Source of the DNA: Maribellus maritimus
GTDB taxonomy: Bacteria; Bacteroidota; Bacteroidia; Bacteroidales; Prolixibacteraceae
Length of the DNA stretch: 64,000 bases
Assembly: GCF_022267315.1 (NCBI RefSeq)
Contig: NZ_JAIKLE010000012.1
Location: 1-64,000, forward strand
Direction: 5' to 3'
This document shows, in pieces, positions 995 through 35,023 of this stretch. The position numbers and the translations under genes are program-made. Under the pieces are notes generated by a model. It saw only the letters and a list, made by a program, of their open reading frames with translations. It was not told where the DNA came from and searched no databases. Every line of letters begins with the position of its first letter. Position 1 is the stretch's first letter.

Positions 995-1714
995 ATGAAA
1001 ACAATTCAAAAGCTTGCCATCCTTATTTTTATTGCTGCCATTGGAATTAATGCTTCGGTTTATGCCGGAAACAGTGACGAAACCGAGAACAGAAAAGTAA
1101 AAAATTTTAACGCAATAAAGGTTTCAACAGGAATTGACCTTTATATTACAATGGGTAACAGTGAAGAAGTTAAAGTTGTTGCCGACGACGATATTATTGA
1201 CGAACTTATAACAGAAGTAAAAGGCGATGTCCTTCATATCTACATGAAACGCAATAACAACTGGTTTAACTGGGGAGGTAGAAATGAAACCAAAAAAGCC
1301 TACGTAACAGTAAAAGAATTAAACGAAATTGATGCTTCTTCAGGATCGGATGTAAAATCGGAAAACACTTTAAAAGGTGAAAATATCAATATTGAAGCCA
1401 GCAGTGGAAGTGACGTGGATTTGAATTTGGTTTACAAAAATATAAAACTGGATACAAGCAGCGGATCAGATGCAAAACTAACAGGGAAAGCAAAAACTTT
1501 TGAAGCAGAAGCAAGCAGCGGCAGCGACATTTCTGCACGTGGTCTCGAAACAGCGATTTGCAGAGTTCGTGTTAGCAGCGGCTCAGATGCCGATGTAACG
1601 GTAAGCGAAGAATTGTACGCAAAAGCAAGTAGCGGAGGTGATGTTCGTTATTTTGGAAACCCTAAAATAAAAGACACTGATGAATCAAGCGGTGGCGACG
1701 TCAGCCAGAGATAA
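995..1714 (+). CDS. GIN-domain (DUF2807) secreted protein, paralogue of the upstream gene
   Basis: Second head-GIN protein, related to the gene at 212-931 in length and repeat pattern. An in-frame ATG lies at 977, but the ATG at 995 gives a clean Sec signal peptide (MKTIQKLAIL onwards, likely cut after VYA), so I prefer 995 (239 aa). There is no lipobox, so unlike its neighbour this protein is probably released or loosely bound. The mature part again shows beta-helix turns, here mostly SSGSD and SSGGD, giving an acidic repeat face. A strong terminator follows at 1737. Function is unknown; adhesion or envelope roles have been suggested for the family, and I see nothing that decides between them. 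Confidence 0.87.
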   Translation: MKTIQKLAILIFIAAIGINASVYAGNSDETENRKVKNFNAIKVSTGIDLYITMGNSEEVKVVADDDIIDELITEVKGDVLHIYMKRNNNWFNWGGRNETKKAYVTVKELNEIDASSGSDVKSENTLKGENINIEASSGSDVDLNLVYKNIKLDTSSGSDAKLTGKAKTFEAEASSGSDISARGLETAICRVRVSSGSDADVTVSEELYAKASSGGDVRYFGNPKIKDTDESSGGDVSQR

Positions 1715-29250: not shown

Positions 29251-29748
29251 TTACAAATTAAAGTCTTCCAGAAAAATTGTCATTAATATAATTACCATAA
29301 TGATAACAAATAACATGATAAAAAAACCAATGACACCTATTTTAAATCCTTGCCTGATTTTAATTTCCCTGGTTACTGAAATCAGATGTTCGATTGAACG
29401 TAGCAAATTATGAGGTGCTTTTTCATTTTTTATGATATAGTCAGCCGCCCCCATCCGCATAATTTTTACTGCAACTTCAACTTCGTTTTGGGCGCTTAAA
29501 AAAATAAAGTCAATTTCCGGATGATCTTCTTTCACTTTTTTCATCAACTCAAGACCATTAATTCCTTCAAATGAATAATCTAAAACAATCAGATCAGGCT
29601 TTAAATCTATCATTTTTAAACACTCTTCACCGCTTTTAAATGTTTTAATGTTCTGATACTTTTTTGATTTTAAATAACCAACAATTAAATCCTTGTAAAC
29701 CAAACTGTCTTCTACGACAAAAATTAGCGGATTTTTTGCTTTTTGCAT
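29251..29748 (-). CDS. Response-regulator receiver domain with C-terminal membrane anchor
   Basis: A single receiver domain (1 to about 128) with the acidic pair in FVVEDS, phosphoacceptor Asp57 in DLIVLDYSF, the Ser of FLSAQ near 85 and the lysine of DYIIKNE near 106. Instead of a DNA-binding or enzymatic output, it carries a basic linker (EIKIRQGFK) and one long hydrophobic helix (about 137-160), so it should sit on the inner face of the membrane. No kinase is adjacent; the nearest is at 37161. Phosphorylation-controlled membrane scaffold or phosphate sink are possible roles. Receiver identity is firm, role unknown. Confidence 0.85.
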   Translation of the reverse strand: MQKAKNPLIFVVEDSLVYKDLIVGYLKSKKYQNIKTFKSGEECLKMIDLKPDLIVLDYSFEGINGLELMKKVKEDHPEIDFIFLSAQNEVEVAVKIMRMGAADYIIKNEKAPHNLLRSIEHLISVTREIKIRQGFKIGVIGFFIMLFVIIMVIILMTIFLEDFNL

Positions 29749-29926: not shown

Positions 29927-32900
29927 ATGAAATATATTGCTGATTTACATATACACTCTCACTTTTCAAGGGCAACAAGCAAAACACTCACACCTGAATA
30001 CCTGGACTATCATGCAGGATTAAAGGGAATTAAAATTGTCGGTACGGGGGATTTCACGCATCCCGGATGGCTTGATGAGTTGAAAGAAAAAACAGAACCG
30101 GATGGAAATGGTTTTTTCAAACTTAAAAGCAATTATAAACTTGAATCTCCTCTGGGCGATAACGATACACATTTTTTGCTTACTGCCGAAATCAGTAATA
30201 TTTACAAACGTGGCGGAAAAGTGAGAAAAGTACATAATGTTGTTTTAGTTCCCGGTTTTGAAGAAGCAGAAAAAATAAATCAACGACTTATCGATCTCGG
30301 AGGTAACCTTACATCCGACGGGCGTCCAATTCTCGGGCTCGACTCCCGCGATCTGCTTGAAATAGTTCTGGAATGCGGAGATAACAATTATTTTATCCCT
30401 GCACATATTTGGACTCCATGGTTTTCGATGCTGGGGTCCAAATCAGGTTTTGATTCGCTTAAAGAATGTTTTGCCGATCTTTCTCCACACATTCATACCA
30501 TCGAAACCGGACTTTCAACAGATCCTCCGATGAACTGGCTTTGCTCTTTTCTCGATAATGTTACATTGGTTTCCAATTCCGACGCACATTCTCCCGACCG
30601 GCTGGGACGAAATGCCAATGTTTTTAATACGGAGCTTGATTATTTTTCGTTGGTGGAAGCGCTAAAAACGGGAGATCCGAGAAAGTACCACGGAACCATT
30701 GATATGTTTCCGCAAGAAGGCAAATATCATTACGACGGACACAGGAAATGCAATATCTGCTGGGATCCGGTTGAAACACTAAAACACAATGAAATCTGTC
30801 CATCATGCAAAAAGCCGGTAACCGTTGGAGTAATGAACCGCGTGATTCAACTTACCGACAGAGAAGATATTTCAGCACGTCCCAACAAATTGCCCTTTAA
30901 ATCGATAATTCCACTTCCTGAAATTCTTTCAGAAATTGCAGGAGTGGGTGTAAAGTCAAAAAAAGTTGCGGAAGAATATTCGCAAACCATTCAAAAACTG
31001 GGTAAAGAGCTCGACATTTTACTGGAAATGCCAATTGAAGAAATCGAGAAAAAAACGTCAAAAACTTTGGCAGAAGCCATTCGACGAATGCGCAGTCGCG
31101 AAATTATCATACAGGAAGGTTACGACGGAGAATATGGTGTTATTAAAGTCTTCAAAAACGGTGAGGCTAAAAACTTCGAAGCTACAAATGCGCTTTTTCA
31201 AATAGAAAAACCTGCGCCTCCTGAAAAACGAGCGTTGATAAATTTTGATTTAAAAGGAATTCAAAAACTCATTCGCAAAAAAACAGAGTTAAAAAATCTG
31301 GCTGCGGAAAAAGAGCAAAAATATGAAACTCAAAAAGCACAACAGCCAACTTTTGACAATTTAAACGCGGAACAATTCACTGCGGTTCAGCACATTGAGG
31401 GGCCCTCGTTAATTATTGCCGGCCCCGGAACCGGCAAAACAAAAACCTTAACCGGCAAAATTGCTTGGCTGATTGGAAATCATCATACAAAACCAGACGA
31501 GATACTGGCCATCACGTTTACAAACAAAGCCGCCGGTGAACTAAAAGAACGCCTTGAAGCAATTTTAAAAAATAAAAACCAGTCGGGTGAAGTTACGGTT
31601 TCAACATTTCATGCTTTTGGGCTTGCTATCTTGAAAGATTATAATGCGGAGTTCAACCGTAATGCAAACTTTATTCTTGTTGATGAAAGCCTGAAAAAAG
31701 AAATTATCAAGTCAATTTCCAAAGAAAAAGGAAGTGAAACAAAAAGACTTTCGGCGGAGATTTCCAAAATAAAAAAAGGAAGCCTGCCGGAAAATCCGTT
31801 TTTTAAAAAGTATGAAAACGAATTACAAAAACTAAATGCTTTTGATCTTGACGATTTGATTGAAAAACCGGTTCAGCTTCTTTCTGAAAACAAAGAAATA
31901 ACAAAAAAACTAAGAGACAAATATCAGTTTATTTTTGTTGATGAATACCAGGATACCAACGATACGCAATACAAATTGCTTCGTTTGCTGGCCCCCGACT
32001 CCAACTCAAATTTATGTGTTGTGGGTGATGCTAACCAATCGATCTACGGATTCCGCGGTGCAAATTCGGGTTATATCTCAAAATTTTCGGAAGATTATCC
32101 GAAAGCCAAAATCTTTCGTCTCACCAAATCATACCGCTGTTCTCAAACCATTCTAACAGCTTCGTCAAATGTAATCGAACAATCCGGCCTTTTGGAAGGA
32201 TTAAATGAAGGCGTACAAATTTCAATTTCCGAACAACCTTCCGGCGCTGCCGAAGCTGAATTTATAGCCCGCCAGATTGTTGATTTGGTTGGTGGTGTAA
32301 GTTTCTTTTCCATTGACAGTTCGGTAGCGCAAGGCGATAAAAACGAAACCATAAACAGTTTGTCTGATTTGGCAGTTTTATGCCGCACGCGCAATCAGTT
32401 TGAAGCCATCACAAAAGCACTGCGCGATCATCATGTACCCTACCAGGAAGCAGGAACCATACCCTATTTTAAACAGGAACCGTTTCAAAGTTTTACAGAT
32501 ATTATCGGTGCATTTTTGCTTGATTCGTTTGAACAGGCAGCCCCTGTTTTTAAATTGAAAAAGAAAAATATTTCCCAACTTCAGTTTGAATTGGTAAAAA
32601 CACAGTTAAAAAAGCCAGATGTAAATTCCTTTCTCGACTTTGTTAAAAAAGAATATTTTGACAAAGAAGAGATTCAACCCAACGAGTGGAAACGTTTTAT
32701 CAACCTCGCAACGGAGAAAAAATCTGTTTCTGAATTTTTGCAATTTCTAAAACTGGGATTGGGAACCGACGCATACGACAAAAGCCTGGAAGCCGTCTCG
32801 GTAATGACGTTACATGCATCAAAAGGACTGGAATTTGAATGTGTTTTTATTCCCGGGTGCGAAAAAGGACTACTTCCCTATACTTTATATAAAAATGAAG

Positions 32901-33121
32901 TGGATGAAGATGAAGAAAAACGACTGCTTTACGTGGGAATGACCAGAGCAAAAAAGTTACTTTACCTCACCAATGCAAAAACGAGAACCATCCGCGGAAG
33001 AAAATTTAATCTTCCGAAAAGCCCTTTTTTAAATTCAATCCAACAGGAGTTGCTTCTGCAAATAAAAAACAGACCTCCTCAAAAAGAAAAAGAACAAGAT
33101 AACCAACTCAGTTTATTTTGA
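29927..33121 (+). CDS. Endonuclease Q-like (PHP) nuclease fused to UvrD/Rep helicase
   Basis: A 1064-aa fusion. Residues 1 to about 410 match endonuclease Q. PHP metal motifs are DLHIHSHFS near 6-14, GTGDFTHPGW near 38-47, IPAHIWTPWF near 160 and SNSDAHSPDRLGRNANVF near 217. A zinc site CNIC/CPSC lies near 276-294, and a helical end has EIAGVGVKSKKVAEE. EndoQ nicks 5' of deaminated bases (hypoxanthine, uracil). Residues about 470-1064 are an SF1A helicase: Walker A AGPGTGKTKTL near 498, DEYQDTND near 671, MTLHASKGLEF near 960 and YVGMTRAKK near 1002. The fusion suggests nicking coupled to strand displacement in deamination repair. Confidence 0.88.
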   Translation: MKYIADLHIHSHFSRATSKTLTPEYLDYHAGLKGIKIVGTGDFTHPGWLDELKEKTEPDGNGFFKLKSNYKLESPLGDNDTHFLLTAEISNIYKRGGKVRKVHNVVLVPGFEEAEKINQRLIDLGGNLTSDGRPILGLDSRDLLEIVLECGDNNYFIPAHIWTPWFSMLGSKSGFDSLKECFADLSPHIHTIETGLSTDPPMNWLCSFLDNVTLVSNSDAHSPDRLGRNANVFNTELDYFSLVEALKTGDPRKYHGTIDMFPQEGKYHYDGHRKCNICWDPVETLKHNEICPSCKKPVTVGVMNRVIQLTDREDISARPNKLPFKSIIPLPEILSEIAGVGVKSKKVAEEYSQTIQKLGKELDILLEMPIEEIEKKTSKTLAEAIRRMRSREIIIQEGYDGEYGVIKVFKNGEAKNFEATNALFQIEKPAPPEKRALINFDLKGIQKLIRKKTELKNLAAEKEQKYETQKAQQPTFDNLNAEQFTAVQHIEGPSLIIAGPGTGKTKTLTGKIAWLIGNHHTKPDEILAITFTNKAAGELKERLEAILKNKNQSGEVTVSTFHAFGLAILKDYNAEFNRNANFILVDESLKKEIIKSISKEKGSETKRLSAEISKIKKGSLPENPFFKKYENELQKLNAFDLDDLIEKPVQLLSENKEITKKLRDKYQFIFVDEYQDTNDTQYKLLRLLAPDSNSNLCVVGDANQSIYGFRGANSGYISKFSEDYPKAKIFRLTKSYRCSQTILTASSNVIEQSGLLEGLNEGVQISISEQPSGAAEAEFIARQIVDLVGGVSFFSIDSSVAQGDKNETINSLSDLAVLCRTRNQFEAITKALRDHHVPYQEAGTIPYFKQEPFQSFTDIIGAFLLDSFEQAAPVFKLKKKNISQLQFELVKTQLKKPDVNSFLDFVKKEYFDKEEIQPNEWKRFINLATEKKSVSEFLQFLKLGLGTDAYDKSLEAVSVMTLHASKGLEFECVFIPGCEKGLLPYTLYKNEVDEDEEKRLLYVGMTRAKKLLYLTNAKTRTIRGRKFNLPKSPFLNSIQQELLLQIKNRPPQKEKEQDNQLSLF

Positions 33122-33241: not shown

Positions 33242-34015
33242 ATGTTACTGGCAATAGATGTAGGAAATACAAACATTGTTTTTGGAGTGAACGAAAATAA
33301 TGAATGGAAAAATCATTGGCGCATTCAAACCGACCACCTAAAAACTGCCGACGAATACGAAGTCATTTTCCGATCGTTATTAAACGGCGGAAAAATTTGT
33401 AATACCAACATTACACAAATTATTCTGAGCAGTGTTGTACCATCGCTTGTACATCCGTTTTCAGAAATGTTAAAAGGTCTGTACCCCGAATCAAAACAAA
33501 CTATCGTAAATCCTGATATTTACAAAAAGTTGCCCGTGAAGGTGCTAAATCCTTATGAAATAGGGGCAGATTTGGTAGCCAATTCTGTTGCTGCATTTCA
33601 GAAATACGGCAAATTAACTACTGTTATTGATTTTGGTACAGCACTTACTTTTACCACAATCGGAAAAGACTCGGAAATCAGAGGAGTCGCTATTGCTCCG
33701 GGATTAAATACAGCGGTAAGCGCGCTTGCAGGAAAAACAGCGCAGTTACCACAAATTCATCTTACTCCTCCGCCTTCAGTTTTGGGCGAAAATACCATTC
33801 ATGCAATACAGTCAGGTATTGTGTTTGGATACACCGGCCTTGTTGATTCTATTATTGAAAGAACAGAAGAAGAATTAAACGAAAAACTGCATGTGGTTGC
33901 TACCGGCGGTTTGAGTTCTGTTGTTGCGCCACTCACAAAAAAAATAAAGACCATTGAGCCGCTTTTAACACTCGATGGTCTTTACCATATAAACTCGTTT
34001 GTTGGTGAGAAATAA
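33242..34015 (+). CDS. coaX: Type III pantothenate kinase
   Basis: Phosphorylates pantothenate with ATP, the first committed step to coenzyme A. The ASKHA-fold phosphate loop is LAIDVGNTNIVFGV at the N-terminus. NPYEIGADLVANSVAAF near 102 and VIDFGTALTFTTIG near 127-140 form the active site, followed by PGLNTAVSALAGKTAQLPQI and TGGLSSVV. Length 257 aa is standard. It stands alone between the helicase and a convergent OmpA gene, with a terminator after it. The pathway's panC and panD are in the same window at 58301-59503. Confidence 0.95.
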   Translation: MLLAIDVGNTNIVFGVNENNEWKNHWRIQTDHLKTADEYEVIFRSLLNGGKICNTNITQIILSSVVPSLVHPFSEMLKGLYPESKQTIVNPDIYKKLPVKVLNPYEIGADLVANSVAAFQKYGKLTTVIDFGTALTFTTIGKDSEIRGVAIAPGLNTAVSALAGKTAQLPQIHLTPPPSVLGENTIHAIQSGIVFGYTGLVDSIIERTEEELNEKLHVVATGGLSSVVAPLTKKIKTIEPLLTLDGLYHINSFVGEK

Positions 34016-34066: not shown

Positions 34067-35023
34067 TCAGTTCATATCAATAATTTCGAGCAATTCGTCC
34101 AAATTGGGTGTAAGAATAATTTCTGTTCGACGGTTCATCTGGCGTCCTTCCGTTGTTTTATCAGCCAAAAGCGGTAAATATTCACTTCTCCCCGCTGCTA
34201 TTATTCTTTTTGGATCGATTTGTTTATTTTGAGTCAGAATTTTTGTAACGGCAGTTGCACGCATTACACTTAAATCCCAGTTGTCTTTCACTGCTCCGGA
34301 ACCATGCATCGGAACATCGTCTGTGTGTCCTTCTACCATTATATTAATGTCGGGATTTTGTGCCAAAACATTACTCAGTTCTTTTAAAGCCTGCTGCCCT
34401 TTGGGATCAACATCCCACTGTCCAGTTTTAAAAAGCAATTTTTCTTCCAGCGAAACATACACTTTTCCATTTTTTTCATGAACTGTCAACCCGTTGTTGT
34501 TAAAGCCAACCAAAGCATCCATAACCTTTTTCTTTAAATCCTGAACAGCCTGTTCCTGTTGAGCAAGTATATTCTGCAACTCTATAAGCTTAGCATTTCG
34601 TTCTTCCAGTTCTTTTTCCGCCGCCCGCAATTTGTCTTCCCGACTATTCAAATCACCCCGGGCTTCCTGTAATTCAGCTAAAAGCTTTTCAATCTCAGCA
34701 GAACTTCCCGAATTTAGAGCCTCCATTTGCTTTTGAAGATCATCTACGTCTTTTTGTAAAGCGCTGTTACTTTGTTTCTGAACATTTAAATCATAAAGCG
34801 CTTCCTCCAGCTGACTCCGCAATTCCTTATTCTGCGAATTCAATTGTTCTACCCGACTCTTTAATTCAGCATTGGCGGCCTCCAAATCCATTTTGTTACG
34901 TTTTAGCTGCTCATTCTCTGTTGTAAGCCTGTCTTTGGTTTCATTAAACTCTTTTAGGGAGACACATGAAGATATGAAAATAATCAGACTGCCGAGTAAC
35001 AATATCTTTTTTCCTGTTTTCAT
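34067..35023 (-). CDS. OmpA-family lipoprotein with long coiled coil
   Basis: Envelope protein (318 aa). The signal ends in FISSC, so Cys20 is likely lipidated. Residues about 25-170 form a heptad-rich coiled coil. Residues about 190-315 are an OmpA/MotB peptidoglycan-binding domain, with LLFKTGQWDVDPKGQQAL, MVEGHTDDVPM and the closing arginines of NRRTEIILTPN. It therefore probably tethers the outer membrane to the cell wall via a coiled-coil spacer. It is convergent with coaX and divergent from dxs. No promoter element was recognised. Confidence 0.88.
   Translation of the reverse strand: MKTGKKILLLGSLIIFISSCVSLKEFNETKDRLTTENEQLKRNKMDLEAANAELKSRVEQLNSQNKELRSQLEEALYDLNVQKQSNSALQKDVDDLQKQMEALNSGSSAEIEKLLAELQEARGDLNSREDKLRAAEKELEERNAKLIELQNILAQQEQAVQDLKKKVMDALVGFNNNGLTVHEKNGKVYVSLEEKLLFKTGQWDVDPKGQQALKELSNVLAQNPDINIMVEGHTDDVPMHGSGAVKDNWDLSVMRATAVTKILTQNKQIDPKRIIAAGRSEYLPLLADKTTEGRQMNRRTEIILTPNLDELLEIIDMN

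Follow-up and report, generated by a model that had tools for sequence, protein, structure and literature searches.

A predicted clamp-tethered nick-and-unwind protein: fusion of endonuclease Q and a UvrD-type helicase in Maribellus maritimus

The gene at positions 29,927 to 33,121 of a 64,000-nucleotide stretch of Maribellus maritimus DNA (contig NZ_JAIKLE010000012.1; the whole stretch is referred to below as the window) encodes a single chain in which a linker connects an endonuclease Q (EndoQ) domain to a complete SF1A helicase of the UvrD type (Table 1). Judged from its sequence, the protein is probably a clamp-tethered nick-and-unwind enzyme for deaminated bases, encoded by a horizontally spread accessory gene that may be able to stand in for uracil-DNA glycosylase (UDG). 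A broader proposal is given an even chance: that the fusion, uniting a lesion-specific nickase, a 3'-to-5' helicase and a clamp tether in one polypeptide, is an excision repair machine found widely among bacteria, and that it took over uracil repair in several UDG-less lineages of the order, that of the window included.

The N-terminal region was compared with known structures, profiles and family models. Residues 5–408 matched the PfuEndoQ structures 5zb8, 7k30 and 7k31 (Pfu residues 5–382) with E values of 5.9e-53 and 3e-52, the homology spanning the PHP, zinc and C-terminal parts, and the next PDB match beyond EndoQ was the unrelated zinc protein NOT4 at 0.13. A profile built from nine fusions retrieved EndoQ at 3.8e-66 and nothing else better than 0.74. 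The sole NCBIfam model matching residues 1–410 was TIGR00375, with a score of 172.5 bits, under the cut-off of 326.6. Seven other bacterial relatives, both fused and unfused, also fell short of this cut-off (156–190 bits), so the shortfall is not peculiar to the window protein, and it was read as distance from the seed of the model because the protein has every residue used to recognise an EndoQ. An AlphaFold2 model of the fusion, computed from an alignment of 35 fusions, had a predicted local distance difference test (pLDDT) score of 85.7 and a predicted template modelling (pTM) score of 0.59. The model superposed on EndoQ 5zb8 with a template modelling (TM) score by target of 0.89–0.90 at 2.5–2.6 Å and on DNA-bound UvrD/PcrA with a TM score by target of about 0.75. 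The pTM is moderate and the model therefore does not fix the placing of the two halves relative to one another. The block at residues 411–470, within the linker, was the least conserved of the protein, with a mean identity of 0.19 over 11 fusions. The original prediction, made from the window sequence, had assigned the N-terminal region to EndoQ with its PHP metal motifs and helical tail; structure, profile and fold matches all agreed with this, and no other PHP family scored better.

The residues needed for EndoQ activity are intact. According to a review (PMC8307549), E76, H84 and H139 of PfuEndoQ bind zinc and their replacement by alanine abolishes activity, and a pocket of H139, G169 and S171 excludes T and A. 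On alignment, Pfu E76, H84, H139, G169, S171 and D193 correspond to E88, H103, H160, G195, S197 and D219 of the window protein, all of which were identical in 92 of 92 EndoQ domains (77 of these fused), as were H8, H10, D42 and H221; in the chains of 7k30 and 7k31 the residue at Pfu D193 is N. The zinc site was expected to be of the four-Cys type, and four cysteines are indeed present (275, 278, 291 and 294). Among the 92 domains C275 and C291 were kept in 92, C294 in 91 and H272 in 90, whereas C278 was kept in only 42. Because C278 is poorly kept and H272 is near invariant, the ligand set is probably His-Cys3 (H272, C275, C291, C294) rather than four cysteines; in the archaeal enzyme the aligned Pfu position is a cysteine where the fusion has His272. 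From the intact residues, and from homology to assayed enzymes, the domain is predicted to nick 5' of a deaminated base, the family activity being directed at uracil, hypoxanthine, xanthine and abasic sites.

The remainder of the protein is a complete SF1A helicase, as had been proposed. Residues 479–1018 matched the UvrD-helicase and UvrD_C families (242 and 114 bits), the closest PDB relative was PcrA, and motifs I to VI of UvrD/PcrA helicases were all present. K504, T505, D672, E673, Q675, R737 and R1007 were invariant over the 35 fusions. PcrA, UvrD and Rep share all main motifs with the fusion and were the best structural matches of its C-terminal half. However, orthology to the housekeeping enzymes was not supported (372 of 911 bits for pcrA and 275 of 1144 bits for uvrD), and a helicase tree of 84 rows split the 65 fused or adjacent helicases from the 19 other UvrD-like proteins on a branch with a support of 98, a limited test since all 19 came from the phylum of the window. 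An ordinary UvrD was additionally present in 15 of 15 genomes searched, including that of the window; by eye, this protein ends in a C-terminal tail that the fusion lacks, the fusion ending instead in a clamp motif. A conserved stretch around the pattern GG-x3-FS-x-DS was seen at residues 774–800 (window 32246–32326), where G789 and G790 are invariant in the 35 fusions and model confidence is low at 792–806. In loose form the pattern occurred in 57 of 61 fused, 2 of 4 adjacent and 1 of 13 plain helicases and in all six members of another UvrD-like group, and is not unique to the fusion.

The terminal QLSLF of the window protein fits the beta-clamp consensus QL[S/D]LF given in PMC12309361 and PMC3919608. 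In the 35 aligned fusions Q1060 was invariant and L1063 and F1064 were each kept in 31, and in the AlphaFold2 model residues 1045–1061 had pLDDT values under 50, indicating an unstructured place. QLxLF ended all 11 intact fusions of a phylum-wide sample, window included. The motif lay within the last 25 residues of 49 of 56 complete fusions, compared with 25 of 2302 other 25-residue segments. A set of 15 genomes yielded 22 plain UvrD-like proteins, none of which had the motif. Of the seven fusions that missed it, five had variant ends (L038, L071, L072, L080, L102) and two had none (L085 and L043, the reading frame of the latter stopping inside the helicase). Among 25 stretches from a sample of the order, 19 of 22 fusions with complete ends matched the pattern and the other three ended in the variants QPSLF, QTKLF and QLSIF; one further fusion was cut, and the last two stretches held unfused proteins (G524, G551) that matched.

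A second, internal site was also found. Of 80 loci, counting fused and unfused alike, 50 have a QxxLF-like motif directly after the EndoQ domain, and the QxxLF or QxxLY that terminates 7 of 13 unfused EndoQ proteins from a scan of genome contigs occupies the same place as the internal QxxLF of many fusions. Three unfused EndoQ proteins of the order (G434, G524, G551) end in QLRLF, QLNLF or QLQLF, that of G434 being QLRLF. In the window protein this position reads TNALF, probably a decayed QxxLF motif; its F424 hardly varies over 35 fusions. That bacterial EndoQ homologues have clamp motifs in their C-terminal region had already been noted in PMC4858679, which also shows that PCNA stimulates archaeal EndoQ through a PCNA-interacting protein (PIP) box. 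The fusion appears to keep this tether at its new end, and docking on DnaN is predicted from the motif.

The fusion is distributed widely. A scan of genome contigs from bacteria and archaea confirmed at least 588 EndoQ relatives, of which the 80 kept all had bacterial titles; the premise that EndoQ is known mainly from archaea and some Bacillus was therefore not upheld. A profile search of the separate halves with a count of their co-occurrence had been proposed as a check; both families were confirmed, and the helicase followed in the same frame in 66 of the 80 loci, with 13 unfused and one cut. The next gene was a UvrD-like helicase in four of the 13 unfused loci (L049, L056, L084 and L097; L049 was checked with Pfam), and together with the 66 fused loci this argues that EndoQ and the helicase belong together. 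The titles of fused loci covered about 16 phylum-level labels, among them Bacteroidota, Thermodesulfobacteriota, Chloroflexota, Bacillota, Elusimicrobiota and Planctomycetota, mostly given to metagenome bins so that single labels may be wrong. In the phylum sample of 395 genomes 13 had an EndoQ domain, 11 fused, two broken into overlapping frames and none stand-alone. In the order sample of 295 genomes it was found in 28, of which 24 had frames of at least 881 aa: the window and 23 others whose alignment continues into the helicase. Weak matches (E above 1e-5), from eight genomes of the order and from three genomes of the window's genus besides its carriers, were set aside as other PHP proteins or chance; their frames were 247–265 aa long, or 415 aa in G485.

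In an EndoQ tree of 92 rows the members from the phylum of the window were scattered over several clades, next to Chloroflexota, Planctomycetota and others. This pattern suggests horizontal transfer. The window protein paired with a Prolixibacteraceae bin at a support of 97. The unfused label required seven changes on this tree, at least four of them forced. Pairwise distances of the EndoQ and helicase domains correlated over 35 fusions (r 0.77, with none of 2000 permutations as high), as would be expected from long shared descent. These results are taken to mean that the fusion is old and that splits and losses came afterwards. Three UDG-less genomes, G434 (L126, 5876–7285), G524 (L213) and G551 (L222), encode an EndoQ that retains some of the linker and ends in a clamp motif, no helicase being found beside it in the stretches retrieved; they give the impression of having lost the helicase while keeping the tether. 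In L031 (G286) and L032 (G282) the gene consists of two overlapping frames broken in the EndoQ domain. By eye the two breaks differ in place by about 30 nt, which led us to reject a programmed frameshift; assembly error or early decay is likelier, and both loci were left out of alignments and trees with their frames unmended. Genes resembling dnaN and gyrB lie in the same stretch as the fusion in L059, L078 and L101, which have Desulfobacterales or deltaproteobacterial titles (Pfam check: dnaN at 1627–2751 of L059, gyrB at 866–3304 of L078). Some bacterial EndoQ proteins have the database name 'DNA helicase UvrD', a sign that the fusion has probably come to the attention of annotators; a description of it was not found in searches of open-access papers on endonuclease Q, the PHP domain and UvrD.

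Within the window's genus the fusion is an accessory insertion beside coaX. It was found in two of 37 genomes, that of the window and G425, with EndoQ domains 97% identical. In seven of eight congeners without the fusion a response-regulator gene and coaX are directly adjacent at its place, while no response regulator was seen in G413, the remaining one. An alpha-L-fucosidase-type gene (PF01120, 28064–29200) adjoins the insertion site, and one is also found near it in G425 and G413 and not in the other seven congeners examined. The original prediction had placed the proposed repair route beside the AAG glycosylase gene (26019), the family of which also handles hypoxanthine. All eight fusion-less congeners have AAG and MFS genes in this neighbourhood as well, and the AAG gene is thus not tied to the fusion; in the order sample AAG also occurred independently of EndoQ (12/28 against 113/267, p = 1). 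A partnership with AAG was rejected and the neighbourhood looks coincidental.

The UDG status of the carriers was also compared. No match to the UDG superfamily was found in the window genome (201 contigs, estimated completeness 100%) or in G425 (a single contig), by a search that recovered UDG from 13 of 14 named controls. In the four congeners G428, G402, G424 and G403 a UDG gene lies between rmuC and a ketoacyl synthase III gene (identified by Pfam on G428). At this locus the window genome and G425 have no UDG, and the aligned parts of the neighbouring genes are about 220 nt apart. Across the order sample UDG was missing from 10 of 28 genomes with EndoQ and 17 of 267 others (p 3.4e-5), the 27 UDG-less genomes comprising 20 listed and seven found by elimination, with carrier states read by eye. 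When the 244 genomes of the order with at least 90% completeness and at most 5% contamination were considered, UDG was missing from 8 of 22 with EndoQ and 5 of 222 without (13 in total; Fisher p 1.1e-6, kinship ignored). The association gave p 7.7e-6 without the window genome, and p 3.5e-4 with fused carriers only and without the window genome. The eight good UDG-less genomes with EndoQ fall in 7 of 16 EndoQ families, and the AAG control was flat in the good genomes (9/22 with EndoQ against 96/222 without, p = 1).

Several observations weigh against this reading. Congener G413 has the same gap at the UDG locus and no EndoQ; UDG may therefore have been lost before the fusion arrived, and its loss does not require EndoQ. 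The p-values of the association ignore phylogeny, and the test leaves uncounted other routes for uracil, namely ExoIII-type incision and helix-hairpin-helix (HhH) glycosylases. UDG was kept in 14 of the 22 good carriers of the order and in all 12 phylum-sample carriers outside it, two of which have the EndoQ-UvrD gene broken into two frames. Strict mutual exclusion of UDG and EndoQ was thus rejected (UDG being kept by 12 of all 13 phylum-sample carriers), and coexistence in most carriers means that replacement is not a rule. The UDG-less G434, G551 and G524 (79% complete) have EndoQ and no helicase in the stretch, so the helicase appears dispensable in some lineages. Clamp binding is predicted from a motif of five residues, the pattern for which is missed by 7 of the 56 complete fusions. 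In five good genomes of the order, G413, G438, G442, G461 and G578, these searches found neither UDG nor EndoQ. EndoV was considered as an alternative and rejected, with no match in the window genome or G425 and a weak match in 2 of 61 relatives. Overall, EndoQ-UvrD is a plausible substitute for UDG in some carriers that coexists with it in most. The repair route independent of glycosylases that had been envisaged is accordingly supported by genome association for uracil glycosylase, and for AAG no association was found.

The mechanism proposed for the fusion would begin with QLSLF docking the protein on the DnaN clamp. The EndoQ domain would then flip uracil or hypoxanthine into its pocket and nick the strand 5' of the base, leaving a 3'-OH. 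SF1A motors move 3' to 5', and displacement of the 5' end with the lesion would consequently require the helicase to enter at the nick on the intact strand, a possible mode of loading that would peel the damaged strand off as a 5' flap. A polymerase could meanwhile extend from the 3'-OH, and host enzymes would remove the flap and ligate the strand. In the window genome the fusion may stand in for UDG by this route. In mismatch repair the MutL endonuclease, which is also clamp-linked, and in excision repair UvrC, are likewise followed by UvrD, which removes the damaged strand from the nick. These pairs are separate proteins with different nucleases, whereas the fusion is a single chain whose nuclease part would itself recognise the lesion.

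The archaeal enzymes PfuEndoQ, TkoEndoQ and MacEndoQ resemble the N-terminal half in fold, in the catalytic Glu, His and Asp, in the Gly and Ser of the pocket and in the zinc part, and also in a C-terminal clamp tether, there the PIP box (PMC4858679). They differ in having no helicase and in using PCNA, while DnaN is the predicted partner of the fusion. The EndoQ proteins of Bacillus pumilus and B. subtilis share a bacterial origin and clamp motifs in the C-terminal region; in the literature consulted Bacillus EndoQ is treated as a stand-alone enzyme, while the fusion has a helicase between the nuclease and the terminal motif.

An unlikely alternative is that the fusion is a single-gene nuclease-helicase of anti-phage defence, comparable to Gabija, that attacks foreign DNA containing uracil or odd bases. 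The gene is indeed patchy, accessory and horizontally moved, and Gabija also pairs a nuclease with a UvrD-like helicase, the fusion helicase scoring 289 bits against a PADLOC GajB model. GajA is however an OLD/Toprim nuclease and not EndoQ, and Gabija consists of two proteins of a defence system. GajA was absent among the PADLOC matches listed for six window proteins; for the fusion 25 of the 53 families matched were listed, and all 25 were on the helicase part only. Of the five neighbouring genes scanned four matched nothing and that at 34067–35023 gave weak MotB/OmpA-like and coiled-coil matches, and no partner gene recurred in more than 7 of 88 loci, many of which had short flanks; a defence island was not supported by these results. 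According to the review PMC8307549, bacterial EndoQ may contribute to antiviral defence and is insensitive to Ugi. The link to UDG loss and the clamp motif nevertheless point to repair.

It is similarly improbable that the protein carries out replication-coupled incision at uracil or apurinic/apyrimidinic (AP) sites with the helicase serving the fork, by clearing RNA polymerase or restarting the fork, rather than excision from the nick. Such a role would suit a clamp motif at the end of the protein, the dnaN-like and gyrB-like genes near the fusion in L059, L078 and L101, and the action of UvrD/PcrA proteins against RNA polymerase. Against it, the fusion has the clamp motif in place of the tail of ordinary UvrD, and ordinary UvrD is encoded besides in every genome searched. 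A fusion of two activities that have little to do with each other mechanistically, in which EndoQ gains nothing from the helicase, is very improbable: unfused EndoQ exists, including in the three UDG-less genomes of the order, but the fused or adjacent arrangement recurs over many phyla with its motifs intact and the domain distances correlate. Repair of deaminated bases by coupled nicking and unwinding is the explanation preferred here.

Table 1. Features of the EndoQ-UvrD gene and its flanks, in window positions
Feature	Position	Strand	Basis
Response-regulator gene, left flank	29251..29748	-	adjoins coaX in 7/8 fusion-less congeners
EndoQ-UvrD fusion gene	29927..33121	+	ATG start, 1064 aa
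EndoQ domain, residues 1-410 (PHP catalytic, zinc and helical C-terminal parts)	29927..31156	+	PfuEndoQ match 5.9e-53; kept residues
Probable zinc site, H272-x2-C275 ... C291-x2-C294	30740..30808	+	conservation over 92 EndoQ domains
Linker, residues 411-476, predicted helix 442-468	31157..31354	+	low conservation; AlphaFold2 model
TNALF, residues 420-424	31184..31198	+	position of internal QxxLF-like motif
SF1A helicase	31355..33049	+	family matches, motifs, PcrA relative
Helicase motifs GPGTGKT 499-505, DEYQD 672-676, GDANQSIYGFRGA, YR, TLHASKGLEF, VGMTRAKK 1003-1010		+	sequence
QLSLF, residues 1060-1064, putative beta-clamp-binding motif	33104..33118	+	conservation; published consensus
coaX, type III pantothenate kinase gene, right flank	33242..34015	+	family match; congener comparison

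If the fusion does replace UDG, uracil would be removed without a glycosylase and without a free AP site, and removal of the strand would be begun by the same chain that makes the nick. EndoQ, regarded mainly as an archaeal enzyme, would then also be a broad family of bacteria, and organisms such as M. maritimus would be predicted to depend on EndoQ-UvrD for a low rate of C-to-T mutation.

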